Assembly (NCBI GenBank): GCA_013359125.1 | Contig: JABWCR010000011.1 | Location: forward strand, 1 to 64,000 | DNA: 64,000 nucleotides | DNA from: Armatimonadota bacterium | Lineage (GTDB): Bacteria; Armatimonadota; Fimbriimonadia; Fimbriimonadales; GBS-DC | Direction: 5' to 3' | Translations under genes and position numbers: made by a program | Part shown: positions 1,088 through 20,889 of the stretch, one piece after another | How the letters are laid out: each line of letters begins with the position of its first letter | Position numbering within the stretch: the stretch's first letter is position 1 | The notes under the pieces: generated by a model | What the model was told of the DNA's origin: nothing | The model's input: only the letters and a program-made list of their open reading frames with translations | Database searches by the model: none

Positions 1088-2896
1088 ATGCTATCGATCT
1101 GTTTGAGCTTGGTAGTTTTGGCGAATGCCGATGTAACCATAACCGCGTACGACGCCCAGACGCACCAAGCGATACGAGGCGACGCGATCGTACAATCCGC
1201 CGATGGCGAACATACCGTAAGGCTGGGCGAAACGATCAAAACCTCGGGCGAAATCGTGGTCGGCGTCCTAGCCGAAGGCTATCATCCCTCAATCTCGGCC
1301 TTTGCGCCCGATGGCGAACTGCGCATCGCCTTCTACCTAGAACCCAAAAATCCCCCGGTCGAAACCACCCATCAATGGATCGACGCGCGCCGCAGCCCTG
1401 GCGGCAGCCTCGTAATGGGCTTCCTGACGGACCAAGACACCGGCGCCCCTATCGCTGGCGCCCTTGTAACATCCGGTGGACAGAAAACCCATAGCAACGA
1501 GAACGGCTTCTTCTGGTACGTCGCGCCCGCAGGCAACGGTTGGGATACCGTCCGCATCGAGCATCCCCGCTACGCAACCCTCACAAGAACCTCTATCCCC
1601 GTCTGGCCGGGCGGAGACTGGACTATGCGCATCCGACTAACCCCAGGCTCCGGCAGCATGATCGATCGCGAAGCGCACAACTTGATCGAACCCAAAAAGG
1701 AGAGCGCGGCGCCCAACGACGACGCCGGAATTCAAGTCGCCTCCGTTGGCTTCCCGCTCAACATCCGGGTAGGACGCAACTGCCCAACGTCCCGAACCTG
1801 CACCACGGTCGAGGTGCATCCCATGGAGAACTACGTCAAGCGCGTGCTCGCCTCCGAGTGGTACTCCTGTTGGGGCAGCCTGACCAACGGCATGAACTCG
1901 CTGAGGGCGGGCGCCGTCTCCGTGCGCAGCTACGGCCTGTGGTACGTCTACAATCCGCTCGACGCCAACTACGACATCTGCGACACCACCAGCTGCCAAG
2001 TCTTCGGAACCAGCACCTCCACCAACGCCAATAACGCTGTCGATCAAACGCCCCGCTACATCTTGCTCCTATCTTCTGGCACCGTGGCGCGGTCGGAATA
2101 CTCGGCGGAGAACAACAACTCCGGCTGTGGCGACGGATACACCGGCACGGGCACATCATGGCCTTGCATAGCCGACCCTGTCTGCACGGGCTTTTCCAGC
2201 TTTGGGCACGGGCGCGGGCTGTGCCAATGGGGCTCGGCGCGATGGGCGGCCGGCACGCGAATCTTGACCTCGTCTCCCTGCGCCGCGGGCACGACGCACG
2301 GACACGGAACCAAGACCTGGCAACAAATCCTGGCGCACTACTACCCGCAATACACGCTGGTGCAGGCGGCTTCGGCCACCCTCAACGGTGTTACAAGCGT
2401 ACCCTTCAATGTTAAGCGCGGAACGCGCCCCCGCCTCGATTTTAGCCTGACCGCGACAGAGGCCTTCCCCCTAATGTTAGGCGCATCGATCCGGCCTTCC
2501 AGCGGCGGCAGTTACGTGTCCGATCCGCCCAACGACCGCAAGTTGACCGTTCCGGCGGGCGCGTCCGTACAGCCCAGGCTCTTTACCGTTCCGGCCAACC
2601 AGCCGACCGGTCTGCACGACGGCCTGACCGCGCTCTGGTTCGACCGAAACAACAACGGCCTGATCAACACGGGCGACATCGTGCTCTCGTCGGCCAACTA
2701 TACGGCGCTGATGAACGTGCGGGTGAACGTAGCGGGCGATGTGGACTTTGACGGCTGCGTGGACGACATCGACCTTTCGCGCGTCTTGTCGGCCTTTGGC
2801 CAAAGCGGCGTCCTGCCCGAAGATCAAAACTACGACGGCATCGTCGACGACCTCGACCTGGCCATCGTGCTGTCTAACTTTGGGGTGGGGTGTTAG
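1088..2896 (+). CDS. Secreted SpoIID/LytB-domain protein with carboxypeptidase-regulatory-like and dockerin-like domains
   Basis: 602 residues. A short signal peptide (1-14) is followed by a carboxypeptidase-regulatory-like beta domain (about 105-180). The SpoIID-type domain (about 220-430) is marked by ENYVKRVLASEW, RAGAVSVRSYG and GHGRGLCQWG, then a beta domain. Residues about 555-602 hold two EF-hand-like loops (DVDFDGCVDDIDL, DQNYDGIVDDLDL), as in dockerins. SpoIID is a lytic transglycosylase on peptidoglycan in sporulating Firmicutes; here a non-sporulation wall role is more likely. The SpoIID region is unusually rich in cysteines, suggesting disulfides and export. The start at 1088 has a strong GGAGAGGAG site. 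Only 8 bp separate its stop from the convergent HNH gene. Confidence 0.85.
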   Translation: MLSICLSLVVLANADVTITAYDAQTHQAIRGDAIVQSADGEHTVRLGETIKTSGEIVVGVLAEGYHPSISAFAPDGELRIAFYLEPKNPPVETTHQWIDARRSPGGSLVMGFLTDQDTGAPIAGALVTSGGQKTHSNENGFFWYVAPAGNGWDTVRIEHPRYATLTRTSIPVWPGGDWTMRIRLTPGSGSMIDREAHNLIEPKKESAAPNDDAGIQVASVGFPLNIRVGRNCPTSRTCTTVEVHPMENYVKRVLASEWYSCWGSLTNGMNSLRAGAVSVRSYGLWYVYNPLDANYDICDTTSCQVFGTSTSTNANNAVDQTPRYILLLSSGTVARSEYSAENNNSGCGDGYTGTGTSWPCIADPVCTGFSSFGHGRGLCQWGSARWAAGTRILTSSPCAAGTTHGHGTKTWQQILAHYYPQYTLVQAASATLNGVTSVPFNVKRGTRPRLDFSLTATEAFPLMLGASIRPSSGGSYVSDPPNDRKLTVPAGASVQPRLFTVPANQPTGLHDGLTALWFDRNNNGLINTGDIVLSSANYTALMNVRVNVAGDVDFDGCVDDIDLSRVLSAFGQSGVLPEDQNYDGIVDDLDLAIVLSNFGVGC

Positions 2897-2904
2897 AGGG
2901 GGTT

Positions 2905-3801
2905 CTATGGCTTATAAAGCACAGTTCGTTCAATGTGCTTGTTGATTGCCAACGGCTCGACCCTTCCGTTCGGGAAAGCAAACGCAAGGGTCGCATAGTC
3001 GAAAGGGGCCAAGGTCTTGTGGACTACAGTATGGTGATTCGGGCAGAGCAGAATCATGTTCTCCAAACTGTCGTCTCCGCCCCTCGAAAGATAAACAATG
3101 TGGTGCGCCTCGCTTGCCTCAACGCCATAAACGACACGACCATCAAAGCCGCACAGCTGGCACTGGTCGCCATAAAGACGGCGCAATTTATCTACTAACG
3201 ATCGATCTTGAGCAGCCGCCATCAACTCGTCTGTTCGAGCGTCCGAATACTGCGCAGACGACTCTCTCAGCACAGATTGAAGCCGCTTTTGCCCTAGATA
3301 GACCGCCATCTCTAAAATCCGCTCATCCGGTACGGCTCTTGCACGCGGTTCCAGCGTGAGACGCTCCGCAAACTTCTCCAGCAAAATAGACCCTTCGGGC
3401 TTTACCGACCTAATCGACTGAAACCGCTGAGGCAAGCTGTAACGGTTGCTACCCTCTGCGTTGCCGGTATCAAGCGGCAAGAGTCGAACTAGATCGAACA
3501 AATCGTTCTGATCTTGGTCGTCGACCCGAAAGTACGTCGATTTGCCAACGTCCCCCATGACCCGATATGGCCCGTACTTGTACCCAGGTCTGTTGATCGT
3601 TTTGGCGGCGACCACCAACATGGCCGCCAAGCGATACTCAGTCTGGCCCGTGGCGCCGATCACCTTGGTGAACAGCCAAAGCCTCTCGCCGACATTGATC
3701 CGATTGTGAAGCGCGGGCTGCCTTGAGTTGTAATGAAAGCCCGCCCCGCGTTCCAAATCCGGCCAGTAATTGTCAGGATGCCAATAGGCGATCAAATCCA
3801 T
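2905..3801 (-). CDS. HNH endonuclease with N-terminal putative recognition domain
   Basis: 298 residues from the ATG at 3801; a longer frame to 3912 is open but adds only a tail without family features. The C-terminal HNH domain (about 205-265) shows CQLC at 214-217, EAHHIVYLSRGG around His233-234, Asn248, and LCPNHH with Cys253 and His256-257, which is a complete metal-binding and catalytic set. The N-terminal 110 residues (YWHPDNYW, then a beta-rich stretch) are not a family I can name; they could be a DNA or base-sensing domain, as in solitary modification-dependent nucleases. No methyltransferase lies next to it. A TATAAT lies 10 nt upstream of the ATG and the dispersed repeat copy A lies about 95 nt upstream. 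Confidence 0.8.
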   Translation of the reverse strand: MDLIAYWHPDNYWPDLERGAGFHYNSRQPALHNRINVGERLWLFTKVIGATGQTEYRLAAMLVVAAKTINRPGYKYGPYRVMGDVGKSTYFRVDDQDQNDLFDLVRLLPLDTGNAEGSNRYSLPQRFQSIRSVKPEGSILLEKFAERLTLEPRARAVPDERILEMAVYLGQKRLQSVLRESSAQYSDARTDELMAAAQDRSLVDKLRRLYGDQCQLCGFDGRVVYGVEASEAHHIVYLSRGGDDSLENMILLCPNHHTVVHKTLAPFDYATLAFAFPNGRVEPLAINKHIERTVLYKP

Positions 3802-16906: not shown

Positions 16907-18448
16907 ATGGCCGAGTTTCCTAGGCTGTTCACCGTTTCTGAGGCCGAAGCGCTGATGCCTCAACTCGGAGTCTTGCTCAAAAGGCTGCAAAAGGCCGCTG
17001 GGAAAGCGAGAGCCCATTACGAAGCCGACCTGCGCTCCGTGGTCAAAACGAGCCTGACCAACGGCCATTCGAAACCGAAGAAGCGGCGCCCGATCGTTCG
17101 CGAGATCGAGGAGATCGTGCGCGCAGTGCATCTTCATGGCGCGGTGGTCAAGGATTTGGAGATGGGCTTGGTCGACTTCCCGCACCAGCGCGGCAACCAG
17201 GTCGTATTCCTCTGTTGGAAGCTCGGCGAGCCCTCCATCCGTTACTGGCACGAGCTAGACAGAGGATTTGCCGAGCGCAAGCCGGTCGCACAGCCGCCCA
17301 ACAAAGCGATGGCCGACACGGTCATCGATGCCTTTGTGCGCCGTTACGACAAACCGACCCACTTGGCCTGGGCGCCCGGTCGCGTGAATCTCATCGGTGA
17401 GCATACCGATTACAACGAGGGCTATGTCATGCCCCTAGCCATCAATCGCTATCTCATGGCAGCGGCCAAAGTGAACGAAGAAGGGCTGCTTCGCGGCTTC
17501 TCCAGCATCGACCAAAACCAACCCTCGCTCAACCAGATCGAGCATCGCATGAACGATGTGCCGCTCGAACCGCCGAACGATTGGAGCAAATATGCCCTTG
17601 GCGTTGCCAAAATGCTGTCAAAGGACGGTGCGCAACTGAGCGGCCTCGACTTTGCTGTCGAATCGTCGCTGCCCATCGGCGCGGGTCTTAGCTCGTCGGC
17701 AGCGATCGAGGCCGTTTTTGCGCTGCTCTGGAACGAGATCGACCGCCTGGAACGCTCGCCGACCGAATTGGCCAAGCTTTGCCAGCAGGCCGAGCGCGAC
17801 TACGTCGGATTGAACTGCGGCATCATGGATCAACTAGCAGTACTGGCTTCCAGAGAGGGCTTTGCAATGCTGATCGATACCCGCGACCTGTCGTTGCGCT
17901 TTGCTCCCATCCCAAAGTCTTGGCTCATCGTGGTCGCCGATACCGGAACGCCCCGAGAACTGACCGCTTCCGCCTACAACGAGCGAGTGAAGGCCTGCCG
18001 AAAGGCTGCCAAAGCCCTCAAAAAGAAATCTCTGAGAAACGCATCGCTGGACGATCTGGAGAAGCTGGAGGCCGAACTTTTGCCCTTCGCGCGCCATGTG
18101 ATCACCGAAAACGACCGAGTTTTGGCCTTTGCGGCGGCGCTGCAGGCCGGCGATTCGGCCCAGGCTGGGGCGCTCATGGCCGAATCGCATCGTTCGCTAA
18201 GAGACGACTACAAAGTCTCCAGTCCTGCGCTCGACGCAATGGCCGAGGCGTGCTGGCAAGCGCCGGGCTGCATCGGAGCGCGAATGACGGGCGCCGGATT
18301 TGGCGGCGCATGCGTATCCCTGGTCGAGGCCGCGCAACTCCACGACTTTATAACCAGCGCGGAAAAGGCGTACAAGAAGGCTATGCCGCATAGACCGTCG
18401 CTGCAAGTCTGCCAATCGGTCGGCAGCGCGGGCATCGTGGAACTGTAA
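16907..18448 (+). CDS. galK: DUF2203-galactokinase fusion protein
   Basis: 513 residues. Residues 1-130 are a DUF2203 domain (FTVSEAEALMPQLGVLL; EMGLVDFPHQRGNQVVFLCW; WHELDRGFAERKP). From about residue 135 (an in-frame ATG at 17309) a full galactokinase follows: GRVNLIGEHTDYNEGYVMP, LPIGAGLSSSAAIE and MTGAGFGGACVSLV, the three GHMP signatures. Galactokinase phosphorylates galactose at C1 in the Leloir pathway. The joint has no stop codon and no ribosome site before the internal ATG, so a real fusion is likely. A lost stop from an assembly error is the alternative. Confidence 0.88.
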   Translation: MAEFPRLFTVSEAEALMPQLGVLLKRLQKAAGKARAHYEADLRSVVKTSLTNGHSKPKKRRPIVREIEEIVRAVHLHGAVVKDLEMGLVDFPHQRGNQVVFLCWKLGEPSIRYWHELDRGFAERKPVAQPPNKAMADTVIDAFVRRYDKPTHLAWAPGRVNLIGEHTDYNEGYVMPLAINRYLMAAAKVNEEGLLRGFSSIDQNQPSLNQIEHRMNDVPLEPPNDWSKYALGVAKMLSKDGAQLSGLDFAVESSLPIGAGLSSSAAIEAVFALLWNEIDRLERSPTELAKLCQQAERDYVGLNCGIMDQLAVLASREGFAMLIDTRDLSLRFAPIPKSWLIVVADTGTPRELTASAYNERVKACRKAAKALKKKSLRNASLDDLEKLEAELLPFARHVITENDRVLAFAAALQAGDSAQAGALMAESHRSLRDDYKVSSPALDAMAEACWQAPGCIGARMTGAGFGGACVSLVEAAQLHDFITSAEKAYKKAMPHRPSLQVCQSVGSAGIVEL

Positions 18449-18501
18449 ACCGGTAAGATTGCAGGGCCATATTGGGCATAACGCCCAAGCCGCGCCAATC
18501 G

Positions 18502-18507
18502 TATAAT
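18502..18507 (+). promoter_or_regulatory. -10 (TATAAT) of leaderless sigma-factor promoter
   Basis: A perfect TATAAT lies 7 nt before the ATG at 18515, so the transcript should start at or next to the A of the start codon. No Shine-Dalgarno is present. A TTGGGC at 18472-18477 is too far (24 bp) for a normal -35. Confidence 0.6.
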
Positions 18508-18514
18508 AGATGCT

Positions 18515-19174
18515 ATGGCTTTAGGGACGAGCAACGCGATGACAATGGATGGCTGGCAACGTCCAGCAGAGGCCGCACCGCTGAGCGCCGAAAGCGACGA
18601 ACGCTTGGTGGTGAGAGCCAGAGCGGGCGAAGAGCCCGCGCTGGAGGAACTCTTCTACAGATATCGCCAGCCCGTCTTCCGCTTCGTGATGCGGATGGTC
18701 AATAGCAAGGACGACGCCGAGGACGTAACGCAAGACGTCTTTATCCGCGTCTACGAGCACCTCAAGTCGTTTCGAGAGGAGTGCCGTTTTAGCACTTGGA
18801 TTCTAAGGATCGCCGCCAACCTCTGTACGGACCGAGCGCGATCCAGACAACGGCAGACGCAATTGCTGCAACAAGAAGCGACCGATCGCTTAGAGTGGAT
18901 GACCCATCCGCACGCGCCCGACCCGGTCGAGCTGGCCCATGGCGACCAAGTCAGCGCAACGGTCCGACGAGCCTTAAACGCTCTGCCCGACCACCACAAA
19001 ATGATGATCGTGCTGCGAGACCTGGAAGAAAAACAGTATGAAGAGATCGCCGAAATGCTGGGCTGTACGATCGGCGGCGCAAAACTGAGAGTACTGAGGG
19101 CAAGGCGAGCGCTGAAAGCGCGCCTGACGCCCCTGCTGGAACAAATAGGAGAGATGGAAAATGTTCGTTTGTAA
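18515..19174 (+). CDS. ECF-family RNA polymerase sigma factor
   Basis: 219 residues. Region 2 (RQPVFRFVMRMVNSKDDAEDVTQDVFIRVYEHL) and region 4 (LPDHHKMMIVLRDLEEKQYEEIAEMLGCTIGGAKLRVLRARRAL, of which only the pattern matters) are complete, with the usual acidic linker. It recruits RNA polymerase to stress or envelope promoters. ATGs at 18539 and 18545 are also possible starts; 18515 is favoured by the TATAAT 7 nt upstream. It overlaps the anti-sigma gene by 14 nt, a typical sigma/anti-sigma arrangement. Confidence 0.93.
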   Translation: MALGTSNAMTMDGWQRPAEAAPLSAESDERLVVRARAGEEPALEELFYRYRQPVFRFVMRMVNSKDDAEDVTQDVFIRVYEHLKSFREECRFSTWILRIAANLCTDRARSRQRQTQLLQQEATDRLEWMTHPHAPDPVELAHGDQVSATVRRALNALPDHHKMMIVLRDLEEKQYEEIAEMLGCTIGGAKLRVLRARRALKARLTPLLEQIGEMENVRL

Positions 19175-19754
19175 GCTTGCGCAAAGGCATCTGGACGACG
19201 ATCAAGCCCCGCGCTGGGCCAGCAACCACTTGGCCAAGTGCGCCCATTGCCAAGCAGAAGCCGATACGATCCATAAGGTCTCGCGCCTGGTCAAACTCTC
19301 CGAAGAGCCGCCCGCCAGCGAACTGAGTTGGAGCCAAGTGCGAAGCAAACTCAACATTCAGCCAGCGCCGGTTCGATCAAGAAGTCGCTTCGTTTGGGGC
19401 GGCATGGTCGGTGCGACCGCAGCGCTGGCCGCCGCCGTCTTCTTCTTCAATCAAAACGCTTACGAGCCGGTCGCTGCGTCAAAACCGATCGAGGTCGCAT
19501 CCACCGAGTCGATCGCCGCGCCCAAACTGGATAAGGCAACGCCCGTCGTCAAGACCGCGGCCTCAACGCCCGACAAGCCTAAGTCATCCATCTCCATTCG
19601 ACGCCACAAGCCCTCGCCGCCGATAACCAAAAAAGCCGAGGCGCCGGTAGTCGTGGCCGCCCTTCCCTTGGAACCGATCGATAACGGGGCAGAGGACGTT
19701 CAGTATCTGACGCTGACCCTCGCCTCTGGAGAGAACCATGTCTTTTCGTTCTAA
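19161..19754 (+). CDS. Zinc-type anti-sigma factor, single-pass membrane
   Basis: 197 residues. N-terminal His23-x3-Cys27-x2-Cys30 (NHLAKCAHC) is the ZAS zinc motif of anti-sigma factors. One transmembrane segment follows (about 76-94), then a Pro/Lys/Ser-rich extracytoplasmic part. It should hold the upstream sigma factor inactive at the membrane. It overlaps the sigma gene by 14 nt and the pseudoprotease gene by 17 nt, so the three are translated as a unit. Confidence 0.82.
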   Translation: MFVCKLAQRHLDDDQAPRWASNHLAKCAHCQAEADTIHKVSRLVKLSEEPPASELSWSQVRSKLNIQPAPVRSRSRFVWGGMVGATAALAAAVFFFNQNAYEPVAASKPIEVASTESIAAPKLDKATPVVKTAASTPDKPKSSISIRRHKPSPPITKKAEAPVVVAALPLEPIDNGAEDVQYLTLTLASGENHVFSF

Positions 19755-20889
19755 TCTTGTTCGCTGGACAGCCATCTTAGTCTTGCCCGTCGCGGCCTCC
19801 TTCGCGCAAGGCGCAAGGTTCGATTTTGACTTCTCGACGCTTAAAGCCGTCGAATCGAAGATCGAACTGCGCCATGGCAACGCGGCCGCAATCGTCAACG
19901 CCATAGGGGGCCTGCAAGACCCCGACCTGGCCGCCCTCGAAGCGTTTCAAAATGCCAACCGCGTCATCGTCGAGCGGGCTATGCCGAGCGTGGTGGCCGT
20001 GCGCGTCGAGCGAGGCCAACTGCCGACGCGCAACATGTTGCCGAACAAGGCGCTCGCATTGGAGAGCAGCGGCTTCGTGATCGATTCAAAAGGTCTCGTG
20101 CTTTGCACCGCCGAAGGCGCGGTCGGACAAGGTCCGTTCCGAATCACCTTCAACGACGGGCGCGAGTATGTCGCTCGCAAGCTGGGCGCAGATGAACTGG
20201 TCAGCAATCTGGCGCTGCTCGAGTTGGAAGGCGCGACCAATCTGACCGCGCTCAACCTGGGCAACTCGGACCGTGCCAGGCCGGGCGACTTTGCGATCTT
20301 GGTCGGAGGCAGCCGCGCCGGATACACCTCGAGCGTTACGATAGGCACCATCGCAGGCGTAGACCGCATGGCGATCGACCCGCAAAAAGGACGCTTTATG
20401 CCGCTGATCCAATTTAACGGCTTGGTCGGCGCGGGCGAGCCGGGCAGCCCCATTTTGAACGCGCGCGGAGAAGTGATCGGCGTCCTCAGCGGCGCCCTGG
20501 CCGCGCTCGATCCCGATGGCCGACCGCTCAACATGCAGACGCAGACCATCGCTAGCACCGGATTCGCCGTGCCGTCCAACATGGTAACGCGGGTGGTCGA
20601 CCAGATAAAGCGCACGGGCAAAGTTCAGTACGCCGTATTGGGGCTTAAGTATAACAACGCCCCTCGAGGCGGCGCGCTCGTGCTCGAAGTCGTCGTTGGC
20701 GGACCGGCGGCCAAAGCGGGCATCAAGGCCGAGGACGTGATCGTTGAGTTTGACGGGCGCTCCACGCCAAACGTGGCCGAACTGACCAAGATGCTCTATG
20801 CGGCCCGCCCCAACAGCCAAGTTACCATAACCGTGCTCCGTAACGGCGTTCGCCAGCCGGTTACCGTTCGGCTTGGCGTCGCGCCTTAA
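19738..20889 (+). CDS. HtrA-like pseudoprotease with PDZ domain
   Basis: 383 residues. Signal peptide about 1-23 (ending SFAQ). A trypsin-like HtrA fold spans about 75-285 and a PDZ domain about 300-380 (GGALVLEVVVGGPAAKAGIKAED region). Aligned with DegP, the catalytic His is Glu126 (KGLVLCTAEGAV), the Asp is Asn157 (VSNLALLEL) and the Ser is Pro235 (GAGEPGSPILN). All three catalytic residues are missing, so it should bind but not cut. In this operon it probably senses or scaffolds envelope signals for the anti-sigma factor. That role is inference. Confidence 0.88.
   Translation: MSFRSNLVRWTAILVLPVAASFAQGARFDFDFSTLKAVESKIELRHGNAAAIVNAIGGLQDPDLAALEAFQNANRVIVERAMPSVVAVRVERGQLPTRNMLPNKALALESSGFVIDSKGLVLCTAEGAVGQGPFRITFNDGREYVARKLGADELVSNLALLELEGATNLTALNLGNSDRARPGDFAILVGGSRAGYTSSVTIGTIAGVDRMAIDPQKGRFMPLIQFNGLVGAGEPGSPILNARGEVIGVLSGALAALDPDGRPLNMQTQTIASTGFAVPSNMVTRVVDQIKRTGKVQYAVLGLKYNNAPRGGALVLEVVVGGPAAKAGIKAEDVIVEFDGRSTPNVAELTKMLYAARPNSQVTITVLRNGVRQPVTVRLGVAP

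Follow-up and report, generated by a model that had tools for sequence, protein, structure and literature searches.

A conserved HtrA-like pseudoprotease encoded with an ECF sigma factor and its anti-sigma factor in Fimbriimonadales

DegS and AlgW are the textbook examples of HtrA proteases that act as sensors and initiate sigma-factor release by cutting. In the window analysed here, a stretch of 64,000 nucleotides from a Fimbriimonadia genome (Armatimonadota), an HtrA-like gene overlaps the anti-sigma gene that follows an ECF sigma factor gene, and none of the three residues of the catalytic triad is found in its product. The locus therefore raises the question of what an HtrA fold devoid of its catalytic residues does beside an anti-sigma factor, and how long it has been there.

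The operon and its promoter

The three overlapping genes proposed in the initial annotation were all confirmed. The sigma and anti-sigma genes share 14 bases, and the anti-sigma and HtrA-like genes share 17:

18515..19174, + strand: ECF sigma factor, 219 aa (Pfam Sigma70_r2 E 1e-19, r4_2 E 3e-12)
19161..19754, + strand: anti-sigma factor (sequence, hydropathy, a weak NCBIfam antisigma match at E 8e-6, and orthologues at the same place)
19738..20889, + strand: HtrA-like pseudoprotease, 383 aa (Trypsin_2 and PDZ_2; AF2 model and Foldseek matches given below)

The first two genes encode an ECF sigma / membrane anti-sigma pair. The sigma factor has regions 2 and 4 only, and its closest named relative, 62% identical, is from the MAG TGS_ARM5. 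The adjacent anti-sigma factor is a single-pass protein of the ZAS type, with the motif HX3CX2C (HLAKCAHC), a single hydrophobic segment at about residues 77-97 according to hydropathy, and then a Pro/Ala-rich periplasmic part. This zinc motif is missing from the anti-sigma factors of most other families of the order (e.g. at loci L131 and L111), where the operon is unchanged. The operon lies between a gene for a DUF2203-galactokinase fusion, on its upstream side, and a CNNM/CorC-type gene that converges on it from downstream. The former is one open frame (16907-18448, + strand) directly 5' of the operon, in which DUF2203 (residues 6-127) is apparently fused to a galactokinase-type GHMP kinase (residues 142-478).

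The promoter first proposed is not supported. A TATAAT hexamer (18502-18507) had been read as a leaderless promoter, but TATAAT is present in only 1 of 73 upstream regions, against 1.65 expected, and it was rejected as a conserved promoter. Relatives carry [AT]AAC-N16-CGTC instead. Of the 73 regions 5' to the sigma gene, 66 contain this pattern, against about 0.34 expected from simple base shuffles. The window has a degenerate copy of it with a 17-base spacing and CGTA, and TATAAT overlaps the -10 part of this copy:

18477..18503, + strand: probable ECF-type promoter, CATAAC-N17-CGTATAAT (CGTA)

A leaderless or near-leaderless transcript start is still plausible, and the probable ECF-type promoter suggests that the operon may be autoregulated by its own sigma factor. 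Given that the window copy is degenerate and that the pattern is not enriched genome-wide in the window's genome (50 matches, versus 102 for the reversed control), no regulon was inferred.

An HtrA fold without its catalytic triad

At its N-terminus, the third protein has a segment that resembles a signal peptide, recognized from the sequence, followed by a helical region, a trypsin-like domain and a PDZ domain (Trypsin_2 at residues 111-249 and PDZ_2 at residues 301-379, both over the Pfam cut-off). It thus appears to be a secreted protein and not a membrane-anchored one. The residues that occupy the three catalytic positions were identified by aligning it with five canonical HtrAs, of which two are encoded in the window's own genome:

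20113..20115, + strand: Glu126 codon, catalytic His position
20206..20208, + strand: Asn157 codon, catalytic Asp position
20440..20442, + strand: Pro235 codon, catalytic Ser position

The AF2 model of the protein, built from a 65-member alignment, showed a confident HtrA fold (mean pLDDT 84.6), with DegP and DegQ as its best solved Foldseek matches (E about 1e-27), which indicates that the residues were lost and the fold was not. The AF2 models are of single chains. The PDZ groove and the pseudo-active cleft were judged from sequence and secondary structure only. By fold, then, the protein belongs to the HtrA/DegP family; by its triad, it does not belong there as an enzyme. It lacks the triad and scores 93 bits against the DegS model, compared with a cut-off of 423, which places it outside the DegS/AlgW class of site-1 proteases, and its HtrA fold also separates it from the RseB/MucB class of shields. 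A shifted alignment that restores the triad was ruled out by the alignments with canonical HtrAs, by a model made from canonical HtrAs alone, which found no His at the His column wherever that column could be mapped, and by two AF2 models with the HtrA fold. Besides the window's protein, a very divergent member was modelled separately and again gave this fold (pLDDT 88.8, best match E 1.7e-18).

We then asked how far the operon extends across the order Fimbriimonadales, represented by one genome per species (113 genomes). The sigma factor had matches at E<=1e-20 in 111 of these genomes, and the orthologue was usually well separated from its paralogues, with mostly 156-297 bits against at most 119 bits. 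No such match was found in G054 and G055, the smallest genomes listed for the order (1.5 Mb), from which the operon is apparently missing. In the downstream DNA of some 75 genomes, the gene order sigma factor, anti-sigma factor, HtrA-like protein was present in all 70 sufficiently complete loci, in addition to the window, and in each of the three loci where an HtrA-like gene was not detected, a contig boundary lies close downstream. In 69 of 69 loci, translation of the HtrA-like gene starts at a codon within the anti-sigma gene.

Across this set, the catalytic His column contained His in 0 of 17 proteins of the window's family (window included) and in 0 of 56 from the other families of the order, while the residues found at each of the three columns vary. 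The His position is taken by Glu or Asp in 17/17 members of the window's family and mostly by Ser, Glu or Asn elsewhere. At the Asp position, the other families have Gly, Gln or other residues, and Asp itself in 7 of the 56 proteins. The Ser position is Pro, Gln or Ser in the window's family (11, 3 and 3 proteins, respectively) and mostly Gly or Ala in the others. At a threshold of E<=0.001, Pfam detected Trypsin_2 in just 25 of the 65 members and PDZ in 64 of them. The initial annotation had read the same three substitutions in a protein that keeps its fold and PDZ domain, had proposed structure prediction against DegS and DegP and a search of homologues as checks, and had named intact-triad homologues at the same place as a refutation. 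Alignment, AF2, Foldseek and the homologues all bear that reading out, and no homologue with an intact triad was found among the operon proteins of the order.

In the other families, a conserved E-x-R-x-E replaces the usual QTDA on the strand that precedes the former nucleophile, and its Glu residues are nearly invariant (for example, protein residues 149-153 of the gene at 2669-3661 on the minus strand of locus L105). This motif may mark a repurposed binding site.

Close pairs of the HtrA-like proteins gave dN/dS values of 0.035-0.27 (12/14 pairs that allowed estimation), which indicates that these are working proteins. A recent pseudogene is ruled out by these low values together with the uninterrupted open frames. 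To look outside the order, the surroundings of the next best sigma factors in the rest of Armatimonadota were analysed (20 regions), and 8 of them, from family clusters f13 and f19, contained the same operon. In the HtrA-like proteins of these 8, His is replaced by Asp or Glu and Asp by Asn, while Ser is kept. His and Asp were therefore lost first and Ser later, in line with a single old loss. In a quick maximum-likelihood tree, a fully supported branch divides the operon proteins from canonical HtrAs; the tree has some long end branches, and placement among the operon groups is unsure. A recent loss in one lineage is ruled out, because His and Asp are already gone from the same operon outside the order, and the tree agrees. 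Given the order-wide synteny, the universal loss of the catalytic His and the purifying selection, there is strong support for reading the window's HtrA-like protein as a pseudoprotease that is dedicated to its sigma/anti-sigma pair as a partner.

The anti-sigma tail and the PDZ loop

The sequences offer a candidate ligand on the anti-sigma factor and a candidate binding loop on the HtrA-like protein:

19704..19751, + strand: conserved anti-sigma C-terminal tail codons (YLTLTLASGENHVFSF-COOH), distinguished by the terminal SF, the identity of the last five residues and the codon-position pattern
20638..20646, + strand: L301-G302-L303, the PDZ carboxylate-binding loop, with Gly302 invariant

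In the window's family, the anti-sigma factor ends in [VI]xSF, with Ser-Phe in 14/14 proteins, and a YLP-like segment lies further upstream in the tail. Anti-sigma factors from the order's other families mostly end in VxxGG (V-V-x-G-G); ahead of this end they have conserved E/A/G at positions -12, -14 and -18 and, at -27 to -30, aliphatic residues. Those from outside the order retain a YV[IL]-like segment near the end. The gapless identity of the last five residues is 52-64% across families, compared with about 10% in the low-complexity linker (0.64 versus about 0.09 in the window's family). All positions in these statistics are counted back from the stop codon, which makes them independent of the anti-sigma gene starts, as these were not individually fixed.

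Six or seven codons at the end of the anti-sigma gene also encode the start of the HtrA-like protein, so that their apparent conservation is inflated and must be discounted. Two observations bear on how much of it belongs to the anti-sigma frame. Most differences in the final five codons are at the third positions of that frame, both in the window's family (0.45 versus 0.30 and 0.15) and in the other families (0.54 versus 0.42 and 0.18); these third positions are the second positions of the HtrA frame within the overlap. In addition, the positions conserved in the other families between -11 and -30 fall outside the overlap with the HtrA start. A Shine-Dalgarno sequence is an unlikely cause of the terminal GG, given that the two glycines are encoded by GGC/GGT and that these codons follow the HtrA start codon instead of preceding it.

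On the side of the HtrA-like protein, Gly302 is found in 65/65 orthologues and is one of only two invariant columns. The carboxylate loop is likewise present in the PDZ domains of canonical HtrAs, which makes its retention an unspecific feature, and GG is not typical as a PDZ ligand. In the window, the pseudoprotease keeps this loop and its candidate ligand ends in Phe. DegS and AlgW bind or are activated by peptides ending in YQF, YYF or WVF (PMC8545111), and the Omp85/BamA-like protein of the window's genome ends in SIGQVF. The resemblance of the window's HVFSF tail to the C-terminus of an outer-membrane protein is a lead, and it is absent in the GG families. It is plausible that the pseudoprotease binds the anti-sigma factor, for which a conserved free C-terminus and a retained carboxylate loop provide indirect support.

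A proposed role in binding and its alternatives

The loss of the cutting residues in a gene that selection has nonetheless retained suggests that the third protein works by binding, probably to the conserved tail of the inhibitor, rather than by cutting. We favour, with a probability of roughly 0.55, the reading in which this is an envelope-stress operon and the pseudoprotease is the periplasmic partner of the anti-sigma factor, gripping its tail and gating its proteolysis. The anti-sigma factor would hold the sigma factor through its cytoplasmic domain, and the pseudoprotease would recognize the short C-terminal tail at the end of a disordered periplasmic linker, most likely through its PDZ domain (via the free carboxylate), its pseudo-active cleft, or both. 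When bound, it would act as a sensor and a gate that either shields the tail from an ordinary site-1 protease or presents the tail to it. An M50 site-2 protease would then free the sigma factor, which would transcribe its own operon. Shielding as the direction of control is our inference, as are the signal and the site-1 protease that would take part. The difference in the tail between families (SF versus GG) counts against a model in which the tail is gripped.

Candidates for the proteases that this reading calls for are present. M50 site-2 protease homologues were found in 21/21 genomes searched, and the window's genome also has S41 proteases (six matches) and two intact HtrAs. The sigma factor may therefore still be released by proteolysis, with the pseudoprotease perhaps gating this step, and the 'non-proteolytic switch' put forward in the initial annotation is not supported as stated.

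These intact HtrAs also bear on an unlikely alternative, in which the pseudoprotease is a positive partner that, like MamO, forms mixed oligomers with an active, anti-sigma-cutting HtrA or activates it allosterically. MamE-dependent processing requires MamO but not the triad of MamO (PMC4794232), and one of the two intact HtrAs lies in a paralogous sigma/anti-sigma operon. However, in the window's genome the active HtrA genes lie outside the pseudo-HtrA operon, and the conserved anti-sigma tail suggests direct contact, although a whole complex could also contact the tail.

It is quite improbable that the protein is an output of the operon, a co-transcribed periplasmic holdase made under envelope stress with no signalling role. 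HtrAs have a protease-independent chaperone activity, inactive variants still protect cells (PMC11642142), and the operon is preceded by an ECF-type motif. It also counts against the favoured reading that a pseudo-HtrA might act in the envelope and have no contact with the anti-sigma factor. Its constant order-wide place beside the anti-sigma gene, with the start codon embedded in 69/69 loci, and the conserved anti-sigma tail instead favour a stoichiometric partner. That the tail is a degradation tag for a tail-specific (S41) protease or for the PDZ domain of an active HtrA, independent of the pseudoprotease, is very unlikely, since, despite the six S41 matches and a terminal aromatic residue like that of outer-membrane-protein C-termini in the window's family, it does not account for the retention, in this operon, of a dead HtrA whose PDZ domain is intact.

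The favoured reading, a pseudoprotease that grips the anti-sigma tail, can be compared with several known systems. In the RpoE-RseA-RseB-DegS system of E. coli and the AlgU-MucA-MucB-AlgW system of Pseudomonas, there are likewise an ECF sigma factor, a single-pass anti-sigma factor, a periplasmic PDZ protein of the HtrA fold and an M50 protease. The system of the window differs from these in that its HtrA-like protein has no triad and is apparently secreted, and in that the conserved tail is on the C-terminus of the anti-sigma factor itself. In both systems, the anti-sigma factor is shielded by a protein that is not a protease, RseB or MucB (PMC8545111; PMC8103513). A role akin to theirs is possible by analogy for the pseudoprotease, although RseB does not have the HtrA fold. 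At the mycobacterial sigE / rseA-htrA-tatB locus, an HtrA gene adjoins an ECF anti-sigma gene (PMC10027907), an adjacency shared with the window's operon. MamO is a magnetosome HtrA pseudoprotease under selection, alongside active HtrAs (PMC4794232); it keeps His and Asp (with Thr for Ser), binds metal through a di-histidine and is unconnected to sigma factors, so that the likeness is only the general one of a dead HtrA. The signalling domain of FoxA, a non-protease, binds the C-terminal part of the anti-sigma factor FoxR and protects it from proteolysis (PMC11637429), but FoxA is a TonB-dependent transducer of unrelated fold.

Non-protease shields, HtrA genes beside anti-sigma genes and dead HtrAs are thus each known, and no report of a dead HtrA combined with an anti-sigma factor was found in the searchable open-licence literature, a limited sample in which the single full-text match concerned a Pro-Pro endopeptidase. 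Work on ECF and anti-sigma factors in Armatimonadetes was likewise not found in open-licence full texts. A dead HtrA that is lineage-wide, under selection and encoded beside an anti-sigma factor suggests that sensing and binding can be kept while cutting is dropped. The operon would thereby provide a natural system for separating HtrA binding from catalysis in envelope-stress signalling, and it supplies a specific candidate ligand in the short conserved C-terminal tail of the anti-sigma factor.

A more detailed version of tail binding is tentative and on balance doubtful. The outer-membrane-protein-like tail of the anti-sigma factor might occupy the PDZ domain of the dead HtrA, and unfolded outer-membrane proteins might compete for that site, release the tail and expose the anti-sigma factor. 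If true, this would be a competition-based stress sensor, in which a classic protease sensor has been turned into a pure ligand-binding switch.

The window's genome also provides an internal control. On contig G000:C1 (locus L057), a paralogous operon encodes a second sigma factor, a second ZAS anti-sigma factor and an HtrA with two PDZ domains and an intact His-Asp-Ser triad, so that an active version of the arrangement is available to this genome; its other intact HtrA is on G000:C9. In three relatives of the family (L045, L047 and L055), the paralogous sigma/HtrA pair lies near the pseudo-HtrA gene. The ZAS anti-sigma factor of the paralogous operon (L057, 3041-5941) ends in PTFGF.
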